Positions 2,597 to 20,260 of a stretch of DNA of 39,195 bases are shown one piece after another. The stretch lies in assembly GCA_015039365.1 (NCBI GenBank), contig WION01000496.1, positions 1 through 39,195 on the forward strand, in the 5' to 3' direction. The stretch's first letter is position 1; each line of letters starts with the position of its first letter. The position numbers were made by a program, and so were the translations under genes. The notes beneath the pieces were generated by a model, which was given only the letters and a program-made list of their open reading frames with translations, was not told the origin of the DNA and made no database searches. The stretch is from Amanita rubescens. Taxonomy: Eukaryota; Basidiomycota; Agaricomycetes; Agaricales; Amanitaceae.

Positions 2597-3981
2597 ATGT
2601 TGGGCATGGAAAATGAGGCGCTTTGCGTGCCCCGTCCTTCTTCAGGTTTGGACTGCAACAAGCTTGTCTTGAACAAACATCCATTTCCATCTAATTTTCC
2701 TGCGAACCACGTATTGATCAAGGTCGACCGGTTTGGCTTTTCGACCAACAATATCAGCTATCAAGCGCTAGGAGAGCACCCACATTTCAGGTGAGAAGCA
2801 AAGCTTTTGTACCCCGACGACTGCTAACCAATGAGCGAAGGTACTTTGACTTTCATCCAATCCCAGACTCGGATACTGGAAACATTTCCGATAAGACTTA
2901 TGGACTAATCCCCGTCTGGGGTTTCGGCACGGTGGTTGCATCAACTCATCCAAAAATTCAAGCGGGAGAGAGAATATACGGCTACCTTTCGCTTGCGAAA
3001 TATCTTTTACTGCCAATCTCTCCTACTGGCGTGACAAAGTATGCCTTGTACGTATCAAGGCCTCAACTCCCTGCAGGTATGTTATAGCCCATGGTGGAGT
3101 CAATGGTGCTCAATGCTAGAACAGATCGTCGGCCATATAATCAAATCATTCGCTGCGCTACTGATCCACAATATGATCCGGATCCTTTGCTAGAAGACTT
3201 GACAATGCTGTATCGACCCCTCTTTTGGACAGCCTACTGGTTTGAGGATTGGCTTTTCGCCTCCAATTACCGAGGTGCATCATTCATTCTCATTAGTTCC
3301 GCCTCGTCCAAAACGGCATTTTCATTCGCATACTTGGTCCGCAAACGAATCAACAATGGAGAGATCAAGTCAAACACGAAGATCATTGGCCTAACCTCAA
3401 GAAAAAACGTTGCGTTTACCAACGGTCTCAACTTATACCACGAGGTGCTCTCGTACGATACTTATCCTGGGTCACCCCTGCTGTACGCAAAAGCCACGGA
3501 AAGATGGATATATGTCGACGTTGCGGGGAACGAGAACCTAAACCGAAATCTTTTCGCCCACTTTTCATCACCATATACTGGACGTTTAGCCGCTTGCATA
3601 GGACTTGGGATCACAAACGTCTTACCGACGTCTGGACAAAGTAAACCTGTTGATTGGAGTGAAAACTCTGCAGCGTCTCTTACATCGACATCGCATGATG
3701 GCGATGTTTCGCAGTTTTGGCCCCGGATGCAGCACTTCTTCATGCCGGAATGGCTCGAGGTACGCCGCCGACAGCTATCTCCAAGCGAAATCGCCACGAA
3801 ACAGAACAAAGCGTGGAAAGAACTTATGCAAGATGGTGCTGGGTGGGTAAAGATGGAAAGGTGCTACGGTGTCGAGGGTGTCCAACGAGCATTCGAAAAG
3901 TTGGTGCAGAATGGAGTTGGACCTGAGGTTGGGCTAATCTGGAGCTTGTGGGGAGAATCACAGATGAAGGCACGGTTGTAA
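2597..3981 (+). CDS. DUF2855 family protein (MDR-like fold)
   Basis: Three exons: 2597..2790, 2841..3076, 3125..3981, predicted 428 residues. Introns of 50 and 48 nt rejoin in frame: HPHF-R-YFDFHP at the first junction, QLPA-D-RRPYNQ at the second. DUF2855 proteins are fungal and bacterial and of unknown reaction. The N-terminal part (LIKVDRFGFSTNN, then WGFGTVVASTHPKIQAGERI) resembles the GroES-like half of medium-chain dehydrogenase/reductases. The middle (FILISSASSKTA, then TKIIGLTSRKN) resembles their Rossmann half. A nucleotide-dependent oxidoreductase role is therefore inferred, not shown. The C-terminal GVEGVQRAFEKLVQNGVGPEVGLIW block, split here by nothing, is intact. An ATG nine bases downstream (2606) is an equally good start. 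A decayed copy of the 3' half lies at 14868-15560. Confidence 0.85.
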
Positions 3982-4440: not shown

Positions 4441-4883
4441 GGAAGGCTAGGCTAGGTGGCATGGAGGGGAGGGGAGGAGAAGGGGCCCGGTCAAGATAGA
4501 GCTAAGAACCGTAAGCTGTTCCCATTTTGTATTTCTCGAAAGATTTGTGACAGCGAGCGCGGTTACCATTACTTATGTCCTCCGCATGCCACGATTATGA
4601 TAGCGGTGCTTAAAAGCGCTGATGGGTGGGACATTTGTTCAGGTTTGCAATTGAATTCGACGAATACAACATTTGGTAGCTCCCCTTCATGTAACCATTT
4701 TAATTCACGGTAAATCACGCGTCATGGAATTGCCGGGTAGAAGCTATGTTCATAACCGGTTATGTACAGCGGCCATATACCCACCACCCAAGGCTGTGCA
4801 GGGAAGTCGCGTGTTATCCGCGTGCGGATGGGTTATTTAAATGGCTGGGTCTTTTTTCGCTTCGCCGACTTTTCCCCGACATC
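4441..4883. other. 5' flank of the alpha/beta-hydrolase gene
   Basis: G-rich tract near 4425-4485, then ordinary sequence. No gene recognised. A TATTTAAAT-like element at about 4831-4840 sits some 45-50 bp upstream of the hydrolase ATG and may be its TATA region. Confidence 0.35.
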
Positions 4884-6639
4884 ATGTCGATTATCGTTGG
4901 TTTAGGTATTCTTGGTGTGCTTCTCGCGATGGCAACCAAGTTTCATGCGTCCAGAACTGCACCTACCGTTCGCTTTGGTCTCAAACCTGCCATACTGGAA
5001 GTAAAGACTCGGAAAGATGGCGACAAACGGACTGAACGGCTTTCCCTTCAAGAGTTGTTAGAGACAAGATGCCAGAGTCTTTTCAGTGTTTTCAAACCTG
5101 TATGGTGGCTTTTCAAGTTGGTCCATTCAGCACGGGGTAATTTTGACCATTACTGATGCCTCTAAGTGGACAACTCCAGACCATATACTGTGTGTTAGCC
5201 GACTTTTCAAAGATCGACCGTATCATCTACCGAAGGTAGTAATTTTACCCTAAAGATGTATTGCATGTGGAGATTGATTGGAACGACAGAAAATATCTTC
5301 AGCTAGCAGACGGCGGTACATTGTGAGCGTCCAGAATTCAGGTACTATTCTATCTGGTCCACTGAAAAAAATGTAGAGGTCTCGATTTCGCGACCGATGA
5401 TCGTCCATGGCACAAACAAACCACACCTGTGATCGTAGTAGTGTCTGGCCTTACTGGAGGTATGTCACATTCAGCAAACCGACCAAAGCCTCACGAACTA
5501 ATCATGGTACAGGATCACACGAACCATACATCAGGGCAATCCTTAGCAGGGCTTGTGCTTCCGTTGATGATGGAGGTTTGGGATATCGCGCAGTGGTCGT
5601 CAACTTCCGAGGATGTATGTTCCCAAGTACACCCATTTACCAATTGTCCTACACATTTTACAGGTGCCGGAGTGCCGATCACGAGCCCTCAGCTGTATTC
5701 GGCTGGTCATACTGACGACTTCCGACAATCACTGGTTTACATTTCGCATTTGTTTCCAGAGGCACCCCTTCTAGGAATTGGGTTTTCCATGGGCGCCAAC
5801 ATGATGACGAGGTACGTCGCCGAGGAAGGCGAAAAGAGTAGGCTTCGATCGTGCTGCTCGCTATCTTCTGTGAGTCGTTCTTGTCTGTCCAAAGAACATA
5901 TCTAAGCGTCCTAGCCATGGAATCTTGCTGCGAATAATAGGCTGTAAGTATCCGCTAAGAGTCGCTTCGCAGCTCAGCTAACGGGATCTTCTCGGCTTGT
6001 AGTCTCCTTAGCACCTATTTGGGGAAAGAGATATTCTCCCGTGCACTGGGTACCAACTTCACTAAAGTAGTGAAGAGAAACTATAAGGGACTGACTATGG
6101 ATCCGAATCACATCGCAACAATGGCTGCAAATGACACCATAGCGCTCAAGAAACCTACTTTGGATGAATTTGACCAGACATTCACATGTAGAGCAGGTGG
6201 TCCAATGCCTCCATTTCCCTTCGAGAAGGTGGACGATTATTATCGTTGGGCGTCAAGTCACAATGTCCTTCACGACATCAGGGTCCCCTACTTGGCAATC
6301 AACGCCGATGATGATCCATTTGTCCAAGACGTTCCCCGTGACGCGGGCGAAAACGGCTATGTTGTGCTGGAAATGACCGCAGGCGGTGGACACTTGGGAT
6401 GGTTCCAGTTTGGGGATAGGCGGACGATGGAAAAGTGGACTACCAGACCCGTGTTGGAATGGTTTAAGCTTACGGGTGATGATGTGATCCACGGAGCAGA
6501 TAAAGCGAGCGAGATATTTCAAGACGGCGACGGCTTCTTGAAGGAAAGAAGTAGACCTGACCTAGGTTGCAAGGAATTACGGGACGGGGGCTTGATTGAT
6601 TGGACCACTGTGGAAATGGGAACATTACAGGGCCTGTAA
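4884..6639 (+). CDS. alpha/beta hydrolase, YheT/ABHD1-3 (Eht1/Eeb1) type
   Basis: Eight exons: 4884..5116, 5167..5235, 5290..5322, 5377..5459, 5513..5614, 5664..5869, 5915..5943, 6003..6639. Together they give 463 residues with every junction in phase. It begins with a hydrophobic segment (IIVGLGILGVLLAMA), a likely membrane anchor. The family hallmarks follow: FNGQLQTIYC, LQLADGGTLGLDF, VVVSGLTGGSHEPYIR, NFRGCAGVPITSPQLYSAGHTDD. The nucleophile elbow is GFSMGAN (Ser), the acid lies in NADDDPF, and the histidine is in GGGHLGWF, so the catalytic triad is complete. Yeast relatives make and hydrolyse medium-chain fatty-acid ethyl esters; animal ABHD3 acts on phospholipids. Substrate here is unknown. 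An alternative acceptor for exon 8 at 6011 would remove three residues. It converges on the amidase gene to its right. Confidence 0.9.
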
Positions 6640-6915
6640 CGGGATACCATACATAGGATAGAAACTCCTGATAATGATCTATCATTCGCTGTCACTGAAT
6701 CCTCCCGATCAGAATATGCCAAAGCGGAGATGGCCCTTTTTCTTCATTCATGAGGTTCACTCCTGGATCGCAGTGGATCACGATAGAACTGAATTTGAAT
6801 GTATCACTAAGCTGGCTATGCTGCTACCATACGGAGGCTGTATTTTGTCCGCTATGGACCGTAAGTAATATACAAGCATTTCTAGAAATGTCACGCTACA
6901 TAATCACCGTGGCCC

Positions 6916-8150
6916 TTAAAGACGATATCTCTGAACCCATACGAGACCTCCGGCCTCTGCAGATGGGTCCATAATACATGAAAAATGGGTATTCTCGTTC
7001 TTTACAGGTTTTTCCTCAAGCCATTCCTTGATCTGACTCAGTGACCTCTGCTTGCGCCATGTTGGATTACCACTCTTCCGCATCATATACCTTTTCCTCA
7101 GGACACTGTCCGCATGTCGGATATCTTCAACTGCATCTTCGTTGGCCCCTTGCTTATGCAAAAGCAGGGCAAGCTCTTCCTCAGATAATTCCTCCATGTT
7201 CAGGTCGTGGTTAGTGCACACGAGGAAATCCTCTGATGACCGGCAGGCTACCGTTGCAAGATCTCGCTCGACTAGGAGCACAGACGTGGGGGAACAGAAA
7301 ATCAGGTAGCAGGAGGGCAGTAGCGTTTTGGGATTACTCGCCCATTGCTTTAAGTCAGCGAGTGTTGGAGGGGGTCCTGGAGAAAGAAGGATTCGACGAA
7401 GGAAGCTGCCGACGGAGCGTCGAAAGCCAAGAAATAAGAGAAGCTGGTGCATCTTGTGATGGAGAGGTGGGGAGGTGGAAATGAGGTTTCCACGGAAGTT
7501 TAAAGACATGGAGAGTCCTTCCCTGTTCACCAATAGCATTGACATAAGAGATACATTCCAATGGTGCCGATATGACTAACCTGACGCCCGTAAGTACGCC
7601 AATGTACCCAGCGACAGTTACTCCCCTACGAGATCATTCTATTAGCGTTCGTTCACGACAAGAAAAGAAGGACCGACCTAGCAATAACTTTCCCCTCCCG
7701 CACGTACTCTACCCTCACAACCAACTCCCTCAGCGGGTCGAAGTCGCCCATATCCGACACCCTCAAATGCATCATTCTCTCCTCCTCCCCCTCCGAGCCC
7801 CGTATCATCACGCCCGCACTCATACACCCCGAATACAAATCCAGCATGGTATTGAATGCCACGACGTGGTACACTTCAATCCCTGCACTTTGCGCAATAG
7901 ATATAGCCTCCTCAGTCTCCTCCTTGGTATAGAGTCTCCGCAGGAACAGCTTCCTCCCCGACTTCAGCAGTGCCCTAATCACCCACGAGGCGCTGAGGAA
8001 CTCGGCAGCCTCATCATACAAGGTAGCGATTCCGGCAAGTTGGACTTTGTAATCAGTGGCGATTTGTACATAACGAATATGCGCCGGAAGAGAGAGGTCG
8101 ATAACATAGAGAGGCGGAAGATCCTTGCTTGTTAACTGCCCATTGGACAT
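6916..8150 (-). CDS. acid ceramidase / NAAA-like amidase
   Basis: Read leftward: exon 1 8150..about 7657, exon 2 about 7625..7581, exon 3 7522..6916, up to 381 residues. LYVIDLSLPAHIRY at the N-terminus and FNTMLDLYSGCMSAGV are typical of fungal acid-ceramidase-like proteins; the cysteine in GCMSAG is the expected autocatalytic nucleophile of this Ntn-hydrolase group. Downstream, GYIGVLTGVREGLSMSLNFR and YLIFCSPTSVLLVERD, then SSEDFLVCTNHD, complete the fold. The family hydrolyses N-acyl amides such as ceramides. Intron 2 (GTTAGT...ACAG, 58 nt) is normal. The exon 1-2 junction is odd: the only in-frame GT-AG choice is a 31-nt intron, leaving about seven extra residues between KVIARS and GVTVAGYIG. 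A small lesion there is possible, so integrity is not certain. The start was chosen because MSNG directly precedes the conserved block. Confidence 0.78.
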
Positions 8151-8856: not shown

Positions 8857-11800
8857 ATGACAGACATTGCTGGAGCTCCTGTAACAGGTATGTCAACAAC
8901 ATGTCTCAACTTAAACAAAGTTTGACATTGAAATAATAGACAAGAAAGGAATTGCTGTTCGCAGGGAACAATACAAATGCAACCACTTTCGTATTCTCGT
9001 CATGGGAAGGGCTAATGCTGGAAAGACTACAATTCTTGAGAAGGTTTGTGGTGTAGAAAAGGGGACAGTGCCAGTTGTTGTATATGATGCTGATGGTAAG
9101 TTGGACTCGGACACCAAAGCCCAGTCTACTTGAGATCCTCAATACTATTTAGATGGAAGGCTGACACCTGATGGGACTCATGCAAGCCCATCAATTGAAG
9201 TGAGTTGAATCAAAATATGCATGTGCTCACCACTGACATGTTTTAAATTGAAATTGTAAGAGGGGTGTACATGATATTGAGCATCAGATTACCTATCGAG
9301 GGAGCAACTTCATCTTCCATGACTCTCAAGGTTTTGAATCTGGTGCAACTGAGCAGTTAGAGATTGTCTGGGACTTTATCCAGAGGCGGTCTAATGAGAC
9401 TAAGCTGGATGAACGGTTGCATGCAATTTGGTATTTTTGCATTTGTACTTTGTGTAAATAACTGAGATAGGCTTTCATAGGTATTGTATACCCATGGATA
9501 GTTCTCGCCCCCTTCTGTCTTCAGAACTAGAGTTCTTTAACAAAGGAACAGGGAATGGTAAGTCTCAACATCAATGAAGACTATTGACCAATATTCACAA
9601 GCAATACTCTCACATTAGTTCCTTTTATGGTTGTATTCACCAAATTTGATGGTCAGATTATCCAAGAATCTGGAAAATTAGATGACATAGAAGATGATGG
9701 AGTTAAGTGGGACTTGGCCAGGAAGAATGCTGAAATCACTTTTCAGAAAACTTATCTTCCTAGAGTTTTTGGTACTCAATATCCCCCAAAAACATATGTA
9801 CAATTGGGAGGTGAGAATGCCAGTGAACATTCCTTTGTGAAAAGGGAGATGATGTTTTGATAGATATGGACATGCCAGAGAGTGACTGTCCTGAATTGAC
9901 TGAGAAGACTGCTGATATAATTGATGATGCTGCTCTAAAAGAACTCTTTGTCACAACACAGATGAACAACCTCAGCCTTTGTGTTAAATATGGGCTTAAG
10001 TGAGTATTACATTGAAATATTGATTCCAAATGTTGAGAATCCAGACATGTCCTGAGCCGAGAGAAAACCATGTTAGAAGCTGCTTTTGTCATAGTACTCA
10101 GCAAGTTTCCACACTACTGGGTATATTTGAAACCATACTCCCTTGAGCATGGAAAAACTGAATGAAAAAAAGATTGGCAGAACAGTAAGCTTACTTTGGA
10201 AAAAATACATGACAACAACATTAATAATGATATTATTGGGAACTTTAAGGATGTGAGTACAGTGGTTTACCTTTATTTGATGATGTACTGTGCTGAGCAG
10301 AATAATGAACAGGATGTATGTTACTTTGATTGCCTGAAAACTTTTGACATGATCTTGTATTTAGCAACATAATGAGGTTGATGTGAGTGATACCACAATA
10401 TTTTGTACATAAATTTGATGTGCTACACAATAGTGGGCAAGTCATGTTAAAATGGTTGTATACTTCAATGAGTGCTGATCTTAGCAAACAGTTTGTGAGT
10501 GATACTGCCCATATATATATAGCCAGGAAGCATTACTGTGGGCAATAGGAAGTGAGTGAAACTGTAGCCATTTTTCCAAGAGGTAGTCTCAAAGTCCTTT
10601 CCTACATCAAACAGAGTGTCAGTACAACTTTTCCAAGAAGTTCAATCACTTTTCATACCATGATCAACAGGCAGTGAGTGACAACATTATTGTAACCAGG
10701 CTGTCACATTCATGTGTCCTATTCCACACAGGATGTGAGTGTCTTCACACTCTAAAAAAAAGCAGTTTCATTTTCTATTCCTGCTAACAGCGGGTATGTG
10801 ATGCTCTACCACTGCTTTTCCTGAGGTCATCATGTGACCAACAGATTGTAAGCAATAATCAACTTTTTGTGCCAGGCAGTCTCTTCACACATCTACCATG
10901 CCAAATAGGCAGTAAGTGACACTGCAGCCATTTCCATTCACTAGCCTTGGATTAATTCATTCATAGAGAGTGAGTGACTTGTGTAATTTATCTGCAGGGG
11001 TGTCTTTAACATTGCATAAACAACAGGTAGTGAGTGGCTATGTACATATGTTGGCTGCATGATATGTAGTTTCATCTTAACCAACAGGAAGTGAGCAATA
11101 TTACATATTTTTTGTCAAGCTGACCCAACACATCTAATCTACCAGAGAGTGAGTAATTATATATTTTTTCCTAAATTTGAACAAATCACACTGCATCATT
11201 AATAGAATGTTTGTGGTACTGCAACTTTTGTGATTACACATCCTCATGCCTGTCACCATTCTATGTTTAACAGATTGTAAGTAATGTTACATTTGGTGCA
11301 GCCAGTCAGATATTAATTTGAGATCTCTTCACATGAACAACAGTATGTAAGTTACTGTGATTTTTTTTGCCTTTCAAGTGGTCTCACCACATCTCATTCC
11401 ATGACCAACAGGAAGTGAGTGAATTTCTCTTCCAGGAAGTATTGTCACATTTCATCCCATGACCAACAGAAAGTGAGTAACACTGTGCCTTTCCTTTGCT
11501 GGACACCTTTATGCCACACATCTCATAGAGTGTCAGTGACTAAGTATTGTTTTTTTTCAAAGAGTCTCATTTCATTGCATGATAAATAGGATGTGAGTGG
11601 CATGCAGTTTTCTTTATTATGAACTCATCATCAACAGCGAGTGAGTGATATTGGATTTTTTTTCTTTGTGCAGTCTCAACCCATGACCCATGATAACAGA
11701 GGGTGAGTGATCCTGCATCTTTGTTTTGGTGTGCACTCTCATCACAATGCATCCCATGGCTAACAGAAAGTGAGTAACTTTGTATTTTTTTTACATTTAC

Positions 11801-14143
11801 ATCCCATCTCATCCCATGGCCAACAGAATGTGAGTGAACACTTTGCTGGACTCTCACATCTCATCCCATGATTAGCTTGCAAGTGACACCATTTTTTCTG
11901 TCACATAGTCTAATCCCATGATCAACAGGATGTGTGTAACACTGCCTTTTTTCCCTAGGCAATCTAATCATGTCTCATCCCATGACCAACAGAATGTGAG
12001 TGACATATGTTATTTCTGTTTAGCATCCATCACAGTTCATCCCAAAATCATCAGTATGTGAGTGTTGCTGTTTGACCTTTGTTGTGCAGATGGATCCTAA
12101 TCCAATGACCAACAGGGAGTGAGTGATAATGCATTTAGTACAAGGCAGTCTTTTCACTTCTCATTGTATGATGAACAGAAAGTGAGTGATATTGCCTCTT
12201 TTCCTTTGCCAGGCACTTGTCTTATCCCCTGATTAAACAGAAAGTGAGTGACATGTCATTTCTTTTCCAAGTCATGTCTCTCATCTCTGATGACCAACAG
12301 ATGGTCAGTGCCACTGCCTTTGTTCTTTATCTAGGCACCTTGTCACATCATCTTATGACCAACAGGCTGTGAGTTACACAGTCACACTGCAGACTTACTC
12401 CATGTTATCCCATGCCTAACAGCATGTGAGTGATACTGTGCCAAGCAATGCTACTAATACATCTGATCCTATGACCAATAGTTGGTGAGTGACACTGCAG
12501 TTTTTTCCACCTGATATTCTTAACACATCTTATCCCATACCAACAGTCTGTGAGTGATACCATTTTGCTGCTAGCAGTCTCATCATATCTCATCCCATGA
12601 CCAACAGTATGTGAGTGACACTGCAATGCTTTGCTGCTGGGCAGTCTCATAACATAGGCTTGTTCTATGACCAACAGAAAGTTAGTAATACTGCATTTTT
12701 CTCATTGCTAGGGAGTCACATTGATGTCCAATGACAAATAGGAAGTGAGTGGAATTGTGTTTTCATATGGAAGCAGTCTATCACATCACATCTTATATCC
12801 AAAAGAGAGTCAGTCAGGTTTTCTGCCAGAATGTTTTTTTGCATCTCATGTCATGTTCCACAGGATGTAAGTATTGGTTTTTCCAGCCAGTAATAACTTG
12901 ACTTCTGCAATAAATAGAAAGTGAGTGGTATTGCACATGTGTTTGGCTAAGCAGCATCACATTCATGAGTAACAGAGAGTGAGTCTCATCATCACATCAG
13001 ATAGACCTAGCTTAGCCTATCTCACAACCAATAGCAAGTGAGTGTACTACACTTATGATGGCAGGCAACTCCATCTTATCTCATTGCATGTTAGCAAGTG
13101 AGTTATGCTGCAATATTTTCAAGTTGTCCACATGTCTCATATCCCCACCCATTCAACAGTTTGTAAGCAACAACTGTGTTTCTACTCTTCATGCAACCTA
13201 TCCTTATGTCATTAGTTTGTGAGTGACACCAGGGCCTCTTCCATCTGACTGTCTTAACATATCTCTTTTTCATGAGCAACAGAAAGTAAGCAACATTTCA
13301 TTTTTGTAAGGCATGCTTAGGGGAATGTACATTGATGTGAACTCAACAGGAAGTGAATGAACATCTAACTTTCGTGTGGTTTTCTCATGTATAATCCTTC
13401 CTTATATTTGCAGATTGTAAGAAACACTTTCAGATTTCCTGTGCTATTTTCATGACAGCTCTTTTCCCCTTTCTCTAGGTGAGAAATGATTTTACATGAA
13501 ATATAAATAGTCATGCTTACTTACATTCAGATTGTATGTCCCCTACTGAGCTGGACTTGGTGTTTCACACTTCTTATCATCAGCCTGAACTCATCTCCTT
13601 GCTTGGAGATGATTCAACATCATTCTCAGCAACTGTAAGATACATTCTCTGAATTAATAATATGTCCTAATTTTCATTTCAGATTGTATGTTCACTACTG
13701 GGTCAGATTTGATAACTTGACATTTCAGCAGCAGCCTAAACTTCACTCTTTGTTTGGAATATCAAAAAAGTTTTCAGCAAATGTAAGACTTTTCCCTACC
13801 TGCATGATTACTACATTGTTAAATTGACACCATTGAAACTAGGCCACCTGTTGTCGAATTCTAGTTGGTAATGAATCTTACTTCATTTACTTTTTTAGGA
13901 TACTGATATTTTAAAGCAATGAATATTATTGCAAAACTGTCATTCTGGATAATGAAGCCATCTAAGAAATCAATTGTTGATAAGAAAACACAGCCACTTG
14001 AGCAATCAATCATGGATGCCTTGGAACAGCTCAAAAGAGAGGGCTATGTGAAGAAACTGAAAACTTCCATTACTTCAGAGTCCATGCCTTCTGATCATCA
14101 AGAATTACTTGACTTTCTTTTTGATCAGACTGCTTATATCTGA
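8857..14143 (+). CDS. P-loop G-domain protein with about 50 consecutive 3-nt exons
   Basis: Conventional exons: 8857..8887, 8940..9095, 9153..9199, 9261..9430, 9481..9557, 9619..9810, 9864..9999, 10045..10120, 10181..10252, 10301..10315, 10365..10382. They give 330 residues in one unbroken frame. GTPase motifs are clear: G1 GRANAGKTT, G3 HDSQG, G4 FTKFD. The protein should bind GTP; such G-domain proteins are common in agaricomycetes and their role is unknown. Exon 9 is open for 24 codons, exon 10 reads NNEQD, exon 11 QHNEVD. Then come 50 single-codon exons (residues 331-380), exon 13531..13533 (I), 13584..13634 (PELISLLGDDSTSFSAT), 13683..13685 (I), 13729..13782, and probably 13843..13867 and 13917..14143, whose frame ends in FLFDQTAYI. 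Predicted total is 67 exons and 500 residues. The gene is distinctly more AT-rich than its neighbours. The last two exons are least certain: an alternative acceptor at 13898 closes the frame after DTDILKQ. Confidence 0.75.
10383..13530 (+). repeat. tandem array of intron-like units separated by single codons
   Basis: Each unit runs GTGAGTGA..., pyrimidine-rich middle, CATCCCATGACCAACAG, then three free bases. Units are 48-70 nt. Similarity is highest around 11.4-12.7 kb and fades to both ends. Exon first bases: 10434, 10492, 10549, 10615, 10671, 10732, 10791, 10845, 10909, 10967, 11027, 11088, 11146, 11206, 11274, 11344, 11412, 11470, 11529, 11590, 11638, 11700, 11767, 11827, 11876, 11929, 11993, 12055, 12116, 12179, 12241, 12301, 12366, 12423, 12482, 12547, 12608, 12678, 12742, 12806, 12864, 12918, 12976, 13035, 13095, 13160, 13216, 13283, 13350, 13414. 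Residues, 10434-11346: WFESADRIARVERNIY. 11412-12118: EKSDRRKNLDNYG. 12179-12744: KKMAHLSYKE. 12806-13416: RDKRQQFFKEI. Donors after 10436 and 11878 are GCAAGT. All splice calls are by eye. Confidence 0.8.
13417..13530 (+). other. double-length intron with a zero-length AG|GT junction
   Basis: At 114 nt this interval is twice the usual intron. Its centre, at 13478/13479, reads CCCTTTCTCTAG directly followed by GTGAGA. This is a strong acceptor abutting a strong donor with no exon between. It could be a recursive-splicing point or a unit whose codon was lost. Confidence 0.5.
13531..13782 (+). repeat. duplicated two-exon module at the end of the array
   Basis: The pair 'ATT exon, intron starting GTATGT, exon beginning CCT' occurs twice. 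The first is 13531..13533 plus 13584..13634 (PELISLLG...FSAT). The second is 13683..13685 plus 13729..13782 (PKLHSLFG...FSAN after two glutamines). Introns and exons match, so the module was copied as a unit. Confidence 0.6.
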
Positions 14144-14867: not shown

Positions 14868-15560
14868 CTGGACAGCTTACTACTGGTTTGAGGATTGGCT
14901 TTTCAGCCTCCAATTACCGAGGAGATGCATTCATTCTCATTAGTTCCGCCTCGTTCCAAACGGCATTTTCATTCGCATACTTGGTCCGCAAACTGAATCA
15001 ACAATGAGAGATCAAGTCAAACACGAAGATCATTGGCCTGACATCACGAAAAAAATTACCAATGGTCTCAACTTATACCACGAGGTGCTCTCGTACGATC
15101 ATTATCCTGGGTCACCGGTCACCCCTGCTGTACGCGAAAGCTACAGAAAGATGGATATGTCGACGTAGCAGGGAACGAGAACCTAAACCGGAATCTGTTC
15201 GCCCACTTTTCATCACCATATACTGGATGATTATCCGCCTGCATAGGACTTGGAATCACAAACGTCTCACCGACGCCTGGACAAAGTACACCCGTTGACT
15301 GGAGCGAAAACTCAGCAGCATCTCTCACATCGACATTGCGTGATGGCGATATTTCGCAGTTTTGGCCCCGAATGCAGCACTCCTTTATGCCGGAATAGCT
15401 CGAGGTACGCCGCCGACAGCTGTCTCCAAGCGAAATAGCTGCGAAGCAGAACAAAGCGTGGAAAGAACTCATGCAATATGGTGCTAATCTGGAGCCTGTG
15501 GGTAGAATCACAGATGAAGGCACGGTTGTAAATGTCTTGCACGAAGGTTGTAAAGTTATT
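14868..15560 (+). pseudogene. degenerate DUF2855 3' half
   Basis: Nucleotide similarity to 3223-3981 is high, but the frame is destroyed. A three-base insertion follows GGACAGCTTAC. Short indels occur at about 15000, 15050, 15115 and 15160. A tryptophan codon has become TAG at 15396-15398 (GGAATAGCTCG versus GGAATGGCTCG). About 100 bp corresponding to 3837-3937 are deleted at a GCT microhomology. Exons 1 and 2 are absent. It lies 0.7 kb downstream of the G-domain gene. Confidence 0.85.
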
Positions 15561-15990
15561 GTAAGGCCGTCAAGCAGCTTTCTTGTGCGTCTTCTAATTC
15601 TTGCTTTTGGCATAGGGAATACAAATTATCTTAGACGACACGCAAAGCTCATTCAGCCATCATAACATTACTAAATGACACCCACGTAACGATTCTAATG
15701 CCTTGTACGCCGTTCAACGCTCGGGATTGAGGAAACTACTTCAAAGTTGAAGACCCATTTGTCGCGACATAGTCGTACCTTCTGATCGCCCCAAAGTAGC
15801 TCTAAGCGTTGCCGGTACGACCATTCTTTTCGCGCTGTCAGGAATCCTCAGCATTTATTTGCATATTAATCAAGCTTCACTGACTTCCGTGGAGAATGTA
15901 GCCTTGCCCCACTAGACGGATTTCCCCTGGTAGAAAAGTGTGTGTATGCGCATGCATCACATTTTTCACTACTTGCTGGGCGCGGAGGAA
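14868..15990 (+). repeat. segmental duplication, copy B
   Basis: Matches 3223-4440 in the same orientation, including the noncoding tail after the gene (15561-15990). The two copies bracket the hydrolase, amidase and AT-rich G-domain genes, about 11.6 kb apart. Confidence 0.85.
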
Positions 15991-16700: not shown

Positions 16701-17477
16701 ATGGACTTGAACGACCATTTAGAACCTCTCGGGCAACAGCCAGGGCTCAAGATATATACCCAGTTATCCCTTTGCTTTCCAGTGTCCGATGCTTCTTCTC
16801 ATCCCGCAATCATCAACACCTTGACGAATGGTCTAGAGCAACTATCTGCAAGCTTTCCGTGGATCGCAGGCCAGCTCGTCAACGAAGGTTCAGGTTCAGG
16901 CGATACAGGTATCTTCAAGATCAAACCATTGGAGAAAATACCTCCTCTGGTTGTGAAAGATTATACGCACGATGCATCGATACCATCGATGAACGACCTC
17001 AGGCGTGCCAACTTCCCCTTTAGCATGCTGGACGAATCTATCATCGCCCCTCGCAAAACTATCCCTCGAGGAGACGAATCGGTGACACCTGTCTTCCTTG
17101 TCCAAGCCAACTTCATCATCGGCGGCCTCGTGCTTACGTTCGTCGGCCAGCATAACTCGATGGATATGACTGGCCAAGGTCAGATCATCCACTTGCTCTC
17201 AAAGGCTTGCCGCAACGAGGAGTTCACAAGCGAGGAACTGTCCTCTGGCAACCTTAAGCGCCGCAACCTTATCCCCTTACTCGACGACTCCTGCAAACCA
17301 GGTACCCAACTCGCTCGCCAGGTTGCAAAACCAAGTCCGTCTGAGGGAACCGATGCCCCCCCAGCAAAGTGCACTTGGGCTTACTTTACCTTTTCTCCCA
17401 CCTCTCTCGCCGCCCTAAAATCACTCGCCACAAAATCCATCACGCTGCCTGAAGGGGGCTACATCTCCACCGATGAT

Positions 17478-17481
17478 ACGC
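17478..17481. repeat. target-site duplication, left (ACGC)
   Basis: Four bases immediately before the left LTR, repeated immediately after the right LTR at 19457-19460. Only one copy is needed for the uninterrupted acyltransferase frame. Confidence 0.75.
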
Positions 17482-17847
17482 TGTAACGGATGGAATCCTG
17501 TTACAGTGTGCAGCATGCTCTGAAGCCTTCCGAAGATGTCCTCCGCCATCCACCTTCGATCCGCTTTCCGTCCGCTTCCGTCCGCTTTCGATCCGCTTCG
17601 ATCCGCTCCGCTCCGACGCGCGGGAATTCGTCGGAGTACATCGGATGCGCGGGAATATGTCGGATTATGTCGGACCACAAGCGCATGGTAGTTACTATAA
17701 GTACATGTCACATGTAGTCATATACATCAGCTACGAACGAGAATCGGAGTCCCCTTCCCCTCAGATCAGCCTTAGCTTAAGTCTGTGCACTATTGTGCAT
17801 GGCACCTGCAGTGCTGGGTACAACCCAGAGCACATTGCAGTGTTTCA
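17482..17847. repeat. left LTR, 366 bp
   Basis: Starts TGTAACGG and ends GTTTCA. It begins with a short inverted repeat, TGTAAC and GTTACA separated by 12 bases. By eye it is base-for-base identical to the right LTR. A TATA-like ACTATAAGTA lies near 17693. Confidence 0.9.
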
Positions 17848-19090
17848 ACTGGAGCCCACCTTCGGCGCGAACTCGCAGTCCTTGTGTCGCTCGTCCGCGA
17901 GCATGAACGTTCTTTCTACCCCTACCAAGGCCTACGTTTCACTCCGCCTTCCATCCGCCACCATCCGCCGCCATCTGCTCCTCACACTGCTCTAGAGTCC
18001 GCTCCGACACAGGCCGCCAATGCCATCCCCTCTTGCTGCCCAACTTGCTCGATCGCTCTGATTCTGCTCCACCTCCGCCGCTGTTCCATTCATTATGCAT
18101 GCGGTCACTCCTTTAGCCCATCCAACACCTATACATGACCCTCTGCTGCCTCCGACGCTGCGCCTCGTTTTTTGCAGCTCTGCCTCATGTATCCACCCTT
18201 CTGCCGCATGTTGACCATGCCTCATGTTTCCCCACACCCGCCAACCCTTGTCCAACATGCTGCAGTCCACCAAATGCTGTCCACACTGCTCCGATGCCCG
18301 CCCCCTGGCCAGCATTGCTCCTCCTCCTCCTTCCGATGCCAACTGCAGCTCCGACGCTCCAATTTTTTTCTTTTCTTCCCAGGAATAGGCATGTGGCATC
18401 CGCCACATTGATGTTTTAGCTTATCTTGATTGCGATCACCTCAATTTGTCTTGCTCCGCTCCGATCGGCTCTGATCTGCCTCAATCCGATCCGACGCACA
18501 TTTCTAAGGCCCACAGCTCCGCCGCAGTTTCGGAACCCTTTACCAGCCATTGACAGAACCTTTGCCATCGACATTCTTTAATACCGTATTGCGCCGACGG
18601 CGTCTCAGGAAACATCTTTATTAGCAGCCTCAATGCAAGGGGTCAGTGCTATTGATTGAATTACTGGGATGACCGCGATCGGGGGAGTTGCGCCCCTCCT
18701 CGCCTTGCTTTGGTATGCTTATACCGACGATTCCACTTCCGACGATTCCGCTCTTTACTGCCTCCGACTTTCTACCTCTGTCAATGATGTTCCACCTCCA
18801 CCCTCCGCCTACAGCTCCGACGCATCCGATTCCGCTGCAATTGCACTGCTTGCCTTACGCCCATATGCAAACAAGCCATGATCCATCACTGAAACACCTG
18901 TCAACACCCCTTTCCTTGCTAAACGACCGCTGACATCAATTCCGCCATGCTGCCTTCGGAACCAACACCTATCATCATTGGATTGCACTACCACGATACT
19001 CCGCCATGCTCCGCCATCATTTCTGCCTTGTCAAGCATCTCCACCTCTGGCTGCACTGACTGGAAGTCAGTATTCAAACTGGTGAGCGGA

Positions 19091-19456
19091 TGTAACGGAT
19101 GGAATCCTGTTACAGTGTGCAGCATGCTCTGAAGCCTTCCGAAGATGTCCTCCGCCATCCACCTTCGATCCGCTTTCCGTCCGCTTCCGTCCGCTTTCGA
19201 TCCGCTTCGATCCGCTCCGCTCCGACGCGCGGGAATTCGTCGGAGTACATCGGATGCGCGGGAATATGTCGGATTATGTCGGACCACAAGCGCATGGTAG
19301 TTACTATAAGTACATGTCACATGTAGTCATATACATCAGCTACGAACGAGAATCGGAGTCCCCTTCCCCTCAGATCAGCCTTAGCTTAAGTCTGTGCACT
19401 ATTGTGCATGGCACCTGCAGTGCTGGGTACAACCCAGAGCACATTGCAGTGTTTCA
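19091..19456. repeat. right LTR, 366 bp
   Basis: Same sequence as the left LTR with no difference that I can find, which means very recent insertion or gene conversion. The acyltransferase frame resumes after the flanking ACGC at 19457-19460. Confidence 0.9.
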
Positions 19457-20260
19457 ACGCTCAGCGCCTTCATCTGGCAATCCATCACCCGCGCCCGCAT
19501 TCCTCGCTTGAGTTCCGCGACCAAGTCAACATTCGCCCGTGCCGTCGACGTACGGCGCCATTTGGGTATTCCACAGACATACCCGGGTATTGTGCAGAAT
19601 ATGACATTTCACACTTACGCGCTCCAGGAGCTGGTCGAGGAACCGTTGGGTAGTATTGCATCCCAGCTTCGTTTGGCCGTTGACCCCAAAACATCGAGCC
19701 TGAAATATGACACCCGTGCCCTTGCAACCTTCCTTAATCGTTCGCCAGACAAGAGTGCCGTTTCCTTCGTAGCGACGCTTGATCTATCTTCGGATATCAT
19801 GCTCAGTTCGTGGGCGAAGCTAGACTGTTATGAACTTGATTTTAACATTGGGTTGGGAAAACCCGAAGCTGTGAGGAGACCGAAGTTTGTTCCGGTTGAA
19901 AGTTTGTTGTATTTGATGCCAAAAGCGCCGGACGGTGAGATTGCGGTTGCCATTTGTTTGAGGGATGAGGATATGGAGAGGTTGAGGGCGGATGAGGAGT
20001 TTGGGCGGTACGCGAGGTATATTGGGTGATGAATAGAAGAGCTGTGTACTGGCGGTGGCTGACTCCCTTTACTGATATCATTTCTCAAACATATGATCAG
20101 TCTTTGTACGAGGGAAATGCATCACCCACAGAATAATACACTCGATACCGATTGCTGAAGGGTAAAAAAGCATGCGATCGGCAAGGCCGTTAAAATCAAC
20201 GGCCAAATACAAGTACAGGAAAATGAAGGTCAGACAGCGTACGTTTTACAATCATGAGCC

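Follow-up and report, generated by a model that had tools for sequence, protein, structure and literature searches.

Array gene of the window

The stretch analyzed here (the window) comprises 39,195 nucleotides (nt) of Amanita rubescens, positions 1 to 39,195 of the forward strand of contig WION01000496.1 (assembly GCA_015039365.1). Between 8857 and 14143 it carries a gene for a GTPase-like protein, interrupted by an array of three-base units that are probably single-codon exons. The original prediction had listed, from 10434 to 13416, 50 successive triplets between an acceptor AG and a donor GT or GC. When we re-read the sequence, all 50 were present, with 49 gaps of 45 to 67 nt, and none of them was a stop codon. 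As had also been proposed, the frame enters the array in phase 0 (the exons of 72, 15, and 18 nt immediately upstream keep it) and runs on behind it, so that 11 upstream exons, the triplets, and 3 downstream exons form an open frame of 481 residues. Further to the earlier list, we noted a 51st triplet, a zero-length AG/GT junction, and a downstream cassette that is present twice in tandem. The 51 triplets have 49 GT and 2 GC donors and encode residues 331 to 381 of the model (WFESADRIARVERNIYEKSDRRKNLDNYGKKMAHLSYKERDKRQQFFKEII). A splice-site weight matrix called 41 of the window triplets at score 6, and the remainder have weaker sites. The array was not reported by Tandem Repeats Finder, presumably because its units are too diverged. 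The parts of the gene are as follows (P0011 and P0121 are environmental proteins, described below).

8857-8887, 8940-9095, 9153-9199, 9261-9430, 9481-9557, 9619-9810, 9864-9999, plus strand: seven upstream exons, GTPase-like domain; open joined frame with AG/GT borders
Within the upstream exons 8857..9999, plus strand: P-loop GRANAGKTT, in the sequence of the window gene
10045..10120, plus strand: exon with the end ..VLSKFPHYW, residues also in P0011 and P0121
10181-10252 (72 nt), 10301-10315 (15 nt), 10365-10382 (18 nt, QHNEVD), plus strand: three short exons; joined open frame
10434, 10492, 10549, 10615, 10671, 10732, 10791, 10845, 10909, 10967, 11027, 11088, 11146, 11206, 11274, 11344, 11412, 11470, 11529, 11590, 11638, 11700, 11767, 11827, 11876, plus strand: starts of putative single-codon exons 1 to 25 of 50
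11929, 11993, 12055, 12116, 12179, 12241, 12301, 12366, 12423, 12482, 12547, 12608, 12678, 12742, 12806, 12864, 12918, 12976, 13035, 13095, 13160, 13216, 13283, 13350, 13414, plus strand: starts of putative single-codon exons 26 to 50
10434..13416, plus strand: predicted array peptide from these 50 exons, WFESADRIARVERNIYEKSDRRKNLDNYGKKMAHLSYKERDKRQQFFKEI
13478..13479, plus strand: zero-length AG/GT junction, 62 nt past the last array triplet; read in the sequence
13531-13533, plus strand: putative 51st single-codon exon, ATT, a weaker unit; aligns with the L of EILPEL in P0011
13584..13634, plus strand: first C-terminal exon, PELISLLGDDSTSFSAT; PELFSVFGEHSTFFSAT in P0011
13683..13782, plus strand: second homologous cassette, an ATT triplet (13683-13685) and a 48-nt exon (13735-13782), PKLHSLFGISKKFSAN; likeness judged by eye
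13843-13867 and 13917-14143 with the stop, plus strand: last two exons, C-terminal helical domain, which also lies downstream of other arrays

The QHNEVD exon has counterparts in P0121 (HNEID) and P0011 (NEVD); the 72-nt exon has no clear counterpart there. The region 13531-13782 is a tandemly duplicated cassette (ATT triplet plus a 51- or 48-nt exon) with each copy in frame, and the two copies are possibly mutually exclusive C-terminal exons; the second one (13683-13782) is excluded from the 481-residue model.

Triplets as probable codons across the genome

The array had been described as a feature of one gene. It is present in the window gene as described, but it is not confined to it: a gene family carries such arrays. 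The motif ACCAACAG-N(3)-GTGAGTGA occurs 1,708 times genome-wide without mismatch (control, 0) and 3,189 times with at most one mismatch (control, 1), whereas exact matches with 0, 4, 5, and 6 bases in place of the three number 1, 9, 0, and 17. The sites are spread over at least 78 contigs among the matches listed. Some contigs are near-copies of each other (the window contig, C436, is 98.2% identical to C650), and the independent array genes are therefore fewer than the places counted. In the stretches examined, the weight matrix, which uses splice-site weights only and leaves the triplet unscored, found 873 sites with a 3-nt exon at score 8, against 7 in reversed sequence, and 2 to 16 sites for each of the exon lengths 1, 2, 4, 5, 6, 8, 9, and 12. 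Lengths of 7 nt (370) and 15 nt (210) gave apparent peaks, which we ascribe to an additional GT or GC within GTGAGTGAC, the conserved start of the introns.

Over 30 stretches the called triplets numbered 24 to 78 per stretch, compared with 50 to 51 in the window gene. With near-copies included, the GTPase (G) domain lay upstream of the array in 27 of the 30 and the C-terminal domain downstream in 22. Stretches without one of these domains include some that start or end in or near the array, plus L012 and L013, which have a Copia-like reading frame ahead of it; in L012 (1-4700) this frame immediately precedes the array, and that stretch yielded no G domain. The zero-length junction of the window (13478-13479) is spaced like an array unit; it could conceivably be a recursive splice site, or perhaps it is a unit that has lost its codon. 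Zero-length exons of the recursive-splice type are not the general pattern, the single strict motif of this kind lying elsewhere than in the window.

Stop codons were absent from the 1,026 triplets called in 23 stretches, where the base composition of the three columns predicts 65.5; this count omits the near-copies L020, L035, L036, L040, L041, L043, and L045 as well as L001-L008 and L027-L034. We used column composition for the expectation because stop counts at other offsets into the introns are unclean as a control: 3 of the 9 offsets (+12, +15, and +21) give 2, 3, and 7 of about 952, as the intron consensus is presumably stop-free there. TAA and TGA together make up 1 of the 1,708 exact genome-wide sites, against 103 expected (TAG lies outside this count). 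Among 952 triplets the choice between synonyms was lopsided: GTT 18 and GTA 1, ATT 31 and ATA 1, CTT 74 and CTA 15, GGA 85 and GGT 4, CGA 96 and CGT 0, CAA 92 and CAG 1. Overall, NTT occurred 201 times versus 19 for NTA and NGA 196 times versus 11 for NGT, with 11 NAG. This bias would fit a need to keep false splice sites out. Nearly all third bases are A or T, and codons with a final G or C are scarce (50 and 21 of 952); TGG, for which no synonym is available, nevertheless occurs 11 times, and cysteine codons occur once. We read the scarcity of G- and C-ending codons together with the retention of TGG as codon-level selection under splicing constraints. In the same triplets, residues with C in the second position (S, T, P, and A) are rare, and E, R, L, G, Q, and F prevail.

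The predicted peptide also has relatives that look spliced. A search with residues 290 to 481 of the model against 5.8 billion proteins, restricted to relatives of similar length with shared words, gave 4 matches, all from the Joint Genome Institute (JGI) and on contigs of 1.1 to 1.5 kb; none of the matches found within these limits was an annotated protein. Three of them have an uninterrupted frame on a contig of about 1.5 kb: P0121 (478 amino acids), P0011 (445), and P0122 (461). They are probably derived from spliced cDNAs, because the window gene has 10 introns among its 11 prearray exons. Including the 51st residue, the array peptide aligned end to end with P0011 at a score of 79 (5,000 permutations: mean, -6.5; standard deviation, 8.6; maximum, 32). 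The two ends of the array (WFESAD..A..ER.YY and KERD.R..F..EILPEL) are conserved, and its middle differs both in how long it is and in its residues. P0011 and P0122 share 285 of 298 and 87 of 92 residues on the two sides of the array region and 28 of 52 inside it, where they are 54 and 71 residues long; since they differ outside the array too, they are probably different genes or alleles. A search with P0011 returned itself and P0122 only, and among the matches listed, P0011 and P0018 had paralogues but no identical gene in the genome. When gaps in six arrays were filled by splice score alone, a stretch resembling KESDREIEYDG of P0018 was completed in two of them (KETDREIKYDG in L026 and KETDREIEYNG in L016), each retaining one unfilled gap before that stretch (103 and 155 nt); in L019, L023, L014, and L010, gaps were left within it.

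We take the triplets to be single-codon exons because they avoid stops, their 3-nt size is fixed genome-wide, and the environmental proteins carry the residues in order. The proposal that a peptide is built one residue per splicing event thus gains support from near-total stop avoidance, synonymous choices, and residue order in relatives, and from these patterns we infer that the arrays are spliced in A. rubescens itself. Of 813 introns examined, 682 would put the message out of frame if retained, whereas the frame survives the skipping of a codon exon.

As for the family, the closest named relatives of the window G domain among the matches listed are hypothetical A. rubescens proteins, up to 75% identical, and annotations of array genes are probably truncated. 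In Pfam, the window G domain reaches 19.5 bits for MMR_HSR1 against a cutoff of 21.9, which the relatives P0087 (25.2) and P0114 (34.8) pass. Neither NACHT nor ANK matched in the window G domain, P0121, P0011, or P0122; the Lactarius relative P0114 has a NACHT match below the cutoff (17.4 versus 26.7 bits), and P0121 has no Pfam match above cutoff. AlphaFold2, run on P0121 with 45 alignment rows, gave a mean predicted local distance difference test score (pLDDT) of 78, with confident G domain and C-terminal helices. The array-matching segment (327-372) falls mostly inside a stretch with pLDDT below 50 (317-357), and the model suggests that the array-encoded segment is likely a flexible loop. 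The best Foldseek matches of this model are dynamin-like and IRG-type GTPases (E values of 3e-5 to 5e-4; template modeling score [TM-score] of about 0.3), and G-alpha and septin structures score nearly as high. Architecture, many copies, variable loop, and fold likeness suggest that the protein may have a role in recognition.

Divergence of introns and codons

The introns called in the window array are all different (34 of 34 distinct). Elsewhere, one identical 62-mer accounts for 35 of 42 introns in L010, 41 of 72 in L019, and 21 of 38 in L023. This 62-nt intron outnumbers all others in arrays on three contigs and has 352 exact copies in the genome (control, 0). Between paralogues, the introns are nearly alike around scrambled codons. 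In five pairs (L023/L038, L023/L037, L037/L038, L010/L038, and L010/L037), which share loci and hence are not independent, 40 to 51% of triplet bases and 0.7 to 1.2% of intron bases differ (60/120 versus 27/2950, 58/114 versus 33/2739, 51/111 versus 22/2750, 52/117 versus 24/3202, and 40/99 versus 30/2767). A second set of paralogue comparisons gave 39 to 52% for triplet bases and about 1% for introns.

Closer pairs, in which the register is set by neighboring codons, allow single changes to be followed. Triplet and intron differences were 9/129 and 9/3184 for L038/L039, 5/129 and 11/3184 for L038/L040, and 4/135 and 4/3191 for L039/L040. The 5 codons that differ between L038 and L039 are clustered, three in consecutive units and the other two in a second adjacent pair (permutation P = 0.003), and 3 of the 5 changes are multibase. 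By parsimony, one CGA of L039 became ATC, a codon with four other copies there and, among the arrays examined, confined to L038, L039, and L040. The best account of the changes in these three loci is probably within-array copying of codons through identical introns, by gene conversion or unequal exchange, and from their pattern we infer that most codon turnover is due to copying. Codon identity of adjacent units (88/705) was not above that at other lags. As the introns are homogenized while the codons are diverse, selection for codon diversity, or triplet-biased mutation, must also act. Arrays shared 9 four-codon words versus 8.3 after shuffling, a measure independent of register, and the scrambling is therefore more than slippage.

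Several observations weigh against this interpretation. The window gene shows no hypervariability or codon turnover relative to its near-copy on C650: triplets differ at 0/153 bases, array introns at 40/3,046 (1.3%), and exons at 0/1,293, although this is weak evidence of constraint because the intron rate predicts only about 2 triplet changes. Other near-identical pairs are similarly quiet, with 1/177 (L026/L041), 0/162 (L044/L045), 0/75 (L042/L043), 0/165 (L019/L020), and 0/123 (L035/window) triplet changes. Because the introns are alike, alignments can slip by one unit: L019 and L036 have 0/204 triplet differences in register but 30/207, against 26/4285 other differences, one unit off register. 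Unit shifts can thus be behind part of the paralogue scrambling. There is no excess of shared codon order, and copying between loci is hence unsupported by the sequences compared. Among 823 pairs of units with the same introns on both sides, 209 have the same codon, roughly double the 12% baseline within arrays, and codon and intron are therefore not fully independent. Five exons of L010 deviate in length, three with 2 nt and two with 4 nt, and if all were used, the product would be out of frame. In the source species of the JGI proteins, moreover, the array-matching segment might be an ordinary exon. The odd-length exons of L010 occur in an array (4785-7842) with near-identical 62-nt introns.

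Four other explanations were weighed. The tandem, mutually similar units could be a minisatellite in one long intron, the triplets being absent from the mRNA and the exon at 10365-10382 joined straight to 13584. In its favor, P0094 bridges the array, the other annotated Amanita relatives examined end ahead of it, and the linker is different or shorter in some relatives (P0087 and P0069). A minisatellite, however, accounts neither for the lack of stops nor for the genome-wide 3-nt exon size, and the array peptide is homologous, in order, to P0011, P0121, and P0122; we consider this explanation very improbable. Introners, mobile introns present in nearly the same form at many sites of a genome, could have been inserted in a burst into an exon that was once continuous, separating its codons; this would agree with the 352 copies of one intron and with the observation that units with identical introns mostly differ in their codon. 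Yet every codon boundary would need a phase 0 insertion, the A- or T-ending codons are unlike an ordinary exon, and of 100 copies listed, only one (C12) is without another listed exact copy nearby. Among the array loci examined, the copies seen also sit in arrays of one gene family, which differs from introners, and such an origin appears unlikely.

Targeted hypermutation of the triplet, with the introns protected, would fit the contrast between triplets and introns in paralogues and the several changes that alter 2 or 3 bases of one codon. Against it, the near-copies with diverged array introns have no triplet change, and the changed codons cluster in adjacent units, one of them reusing an array-private codon, for which copying is the better fit; we see little chance that hypermutation is the cause. 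The array might instead serve mainly somatic variety through alternative skipping of codon exons, as reported for truffle nank genes (PMC4986451 and PMC9815663, as far as their passages on these genes go), with turnover secondary. The frame is kept whatever number of units is skipped, and the truffle genes are a precedent; P0011 and P0122, however, differ outside the array as well and are probably different genes or alleles. We doubt this alternative, while granting it some plausibility.

The sequence itself shows the 3-nt exon size, phase 0, stop avoidance, the location of the array between the G and C-terminal domains, and, in some arrays, scrambled codons flanked by introns that are nearly identical. 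We consider it probable that the 50 units of the window (51 with the weaker one) are single-codon exons of a 481-residue GTPase-like protein and that near-identical introns serve as exchange arms for codon cassettes. The pre-mRNA would be spliced at every array unit. Conserved residues would be encoded at the two ends of the array, and between them a loop that is hypervariable and probably flexible. Where the introns of an array are identical, its units would recombine or undergo gene conversion with one another and codons would be copied and reordered, with selection keeping stops out and codon diversity in. Least certainly, the protein may be a recognition or immunity-type GTPase with its specificity set by the variable loop.

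Two further features of the window lie outside the array gene. At 17477-19511, identical reading-frame text and tandem repeats occur twice, 1.6 kb apart (17546 and 19155), perhaps as a long terminal repeat-type insertion; the flanking reading frames presumably each resemble one half of an acyltransferase. Minus-strand reading frames at 3462-3863 and at 15119-15625, the latter a short way past the array gene, are similar to each other and are perhaps a duplicated stretch, such as a broken gene copy.

Relation to known systems

The original prediction knew of no described case on this scale, which does not hold. Truffle (Tuber melanosporum) nank (NACHT-ANK) genes are reported to contain dozens of alternatively spliced 3-bp mini-exons, credited to Iotti et al. 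2012 (PMC9815663 and PMC4986451). According to the passages on nank in these papers, the two systems share dozens of 3-bp exons, an affected C-terminal region, an expanded fungal family, and a nucleotide-binding domain. The truffle is an ascomycete with NACHT and ankyrin domains, whereas Amanita is a basidiomycete with a GTPase-like domain, and its arrays add codon scrambling between identical introns, which those passages do not mention. Schistosome microexon genes (MEGs) have exons of 6 to 36 bp over about 80% of the coding region, and nearly all encode secreted or membrane-anchored proteins (PMC5825161). In the part of that work consulted, many tiny symmetric exons and protein variety as the proposed purpose are shared features; the Amanita 3-nt exons span just 51 of 481 residues. 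The likeness of P0121 to the dynamin-like and IRG (p47) GTPases BDLP, IIGP1, and IRGa6 is a weak likeness of fold, with 11 to 12% identity.

The literature searched held no report of single-codon exon arrays in Amanita or other basidiomycetes. Amanita appears to use the same trick as the truffle nank genes, in a different phylum and a different protein family, and we found no description of its codon turnover in that literature. The arrays would mean that a basidiomycete uses single-codon exons on the scale of its whole genome, and in a protein family distinct from the truffle's, and they would demand a spliceosome able to handle about 50 consecutive 3-nt exons. They also suggest a reason for such arrays, with introns as exchange arms and the codon as the unit of recombination. 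Tentatively, and with somewhat less than even confidence, we propose a codon-cassette diversification in which thousands of one-codon units in similar introns would let recombination rewrite a receptor loop residue by residue and leave the rest of the gene untouched. If true, this fungus would have an equivalent of the cassette-based diversification of antigen receptors, working at the resolution of single residues, with its machinery hidden by the spliceosome.

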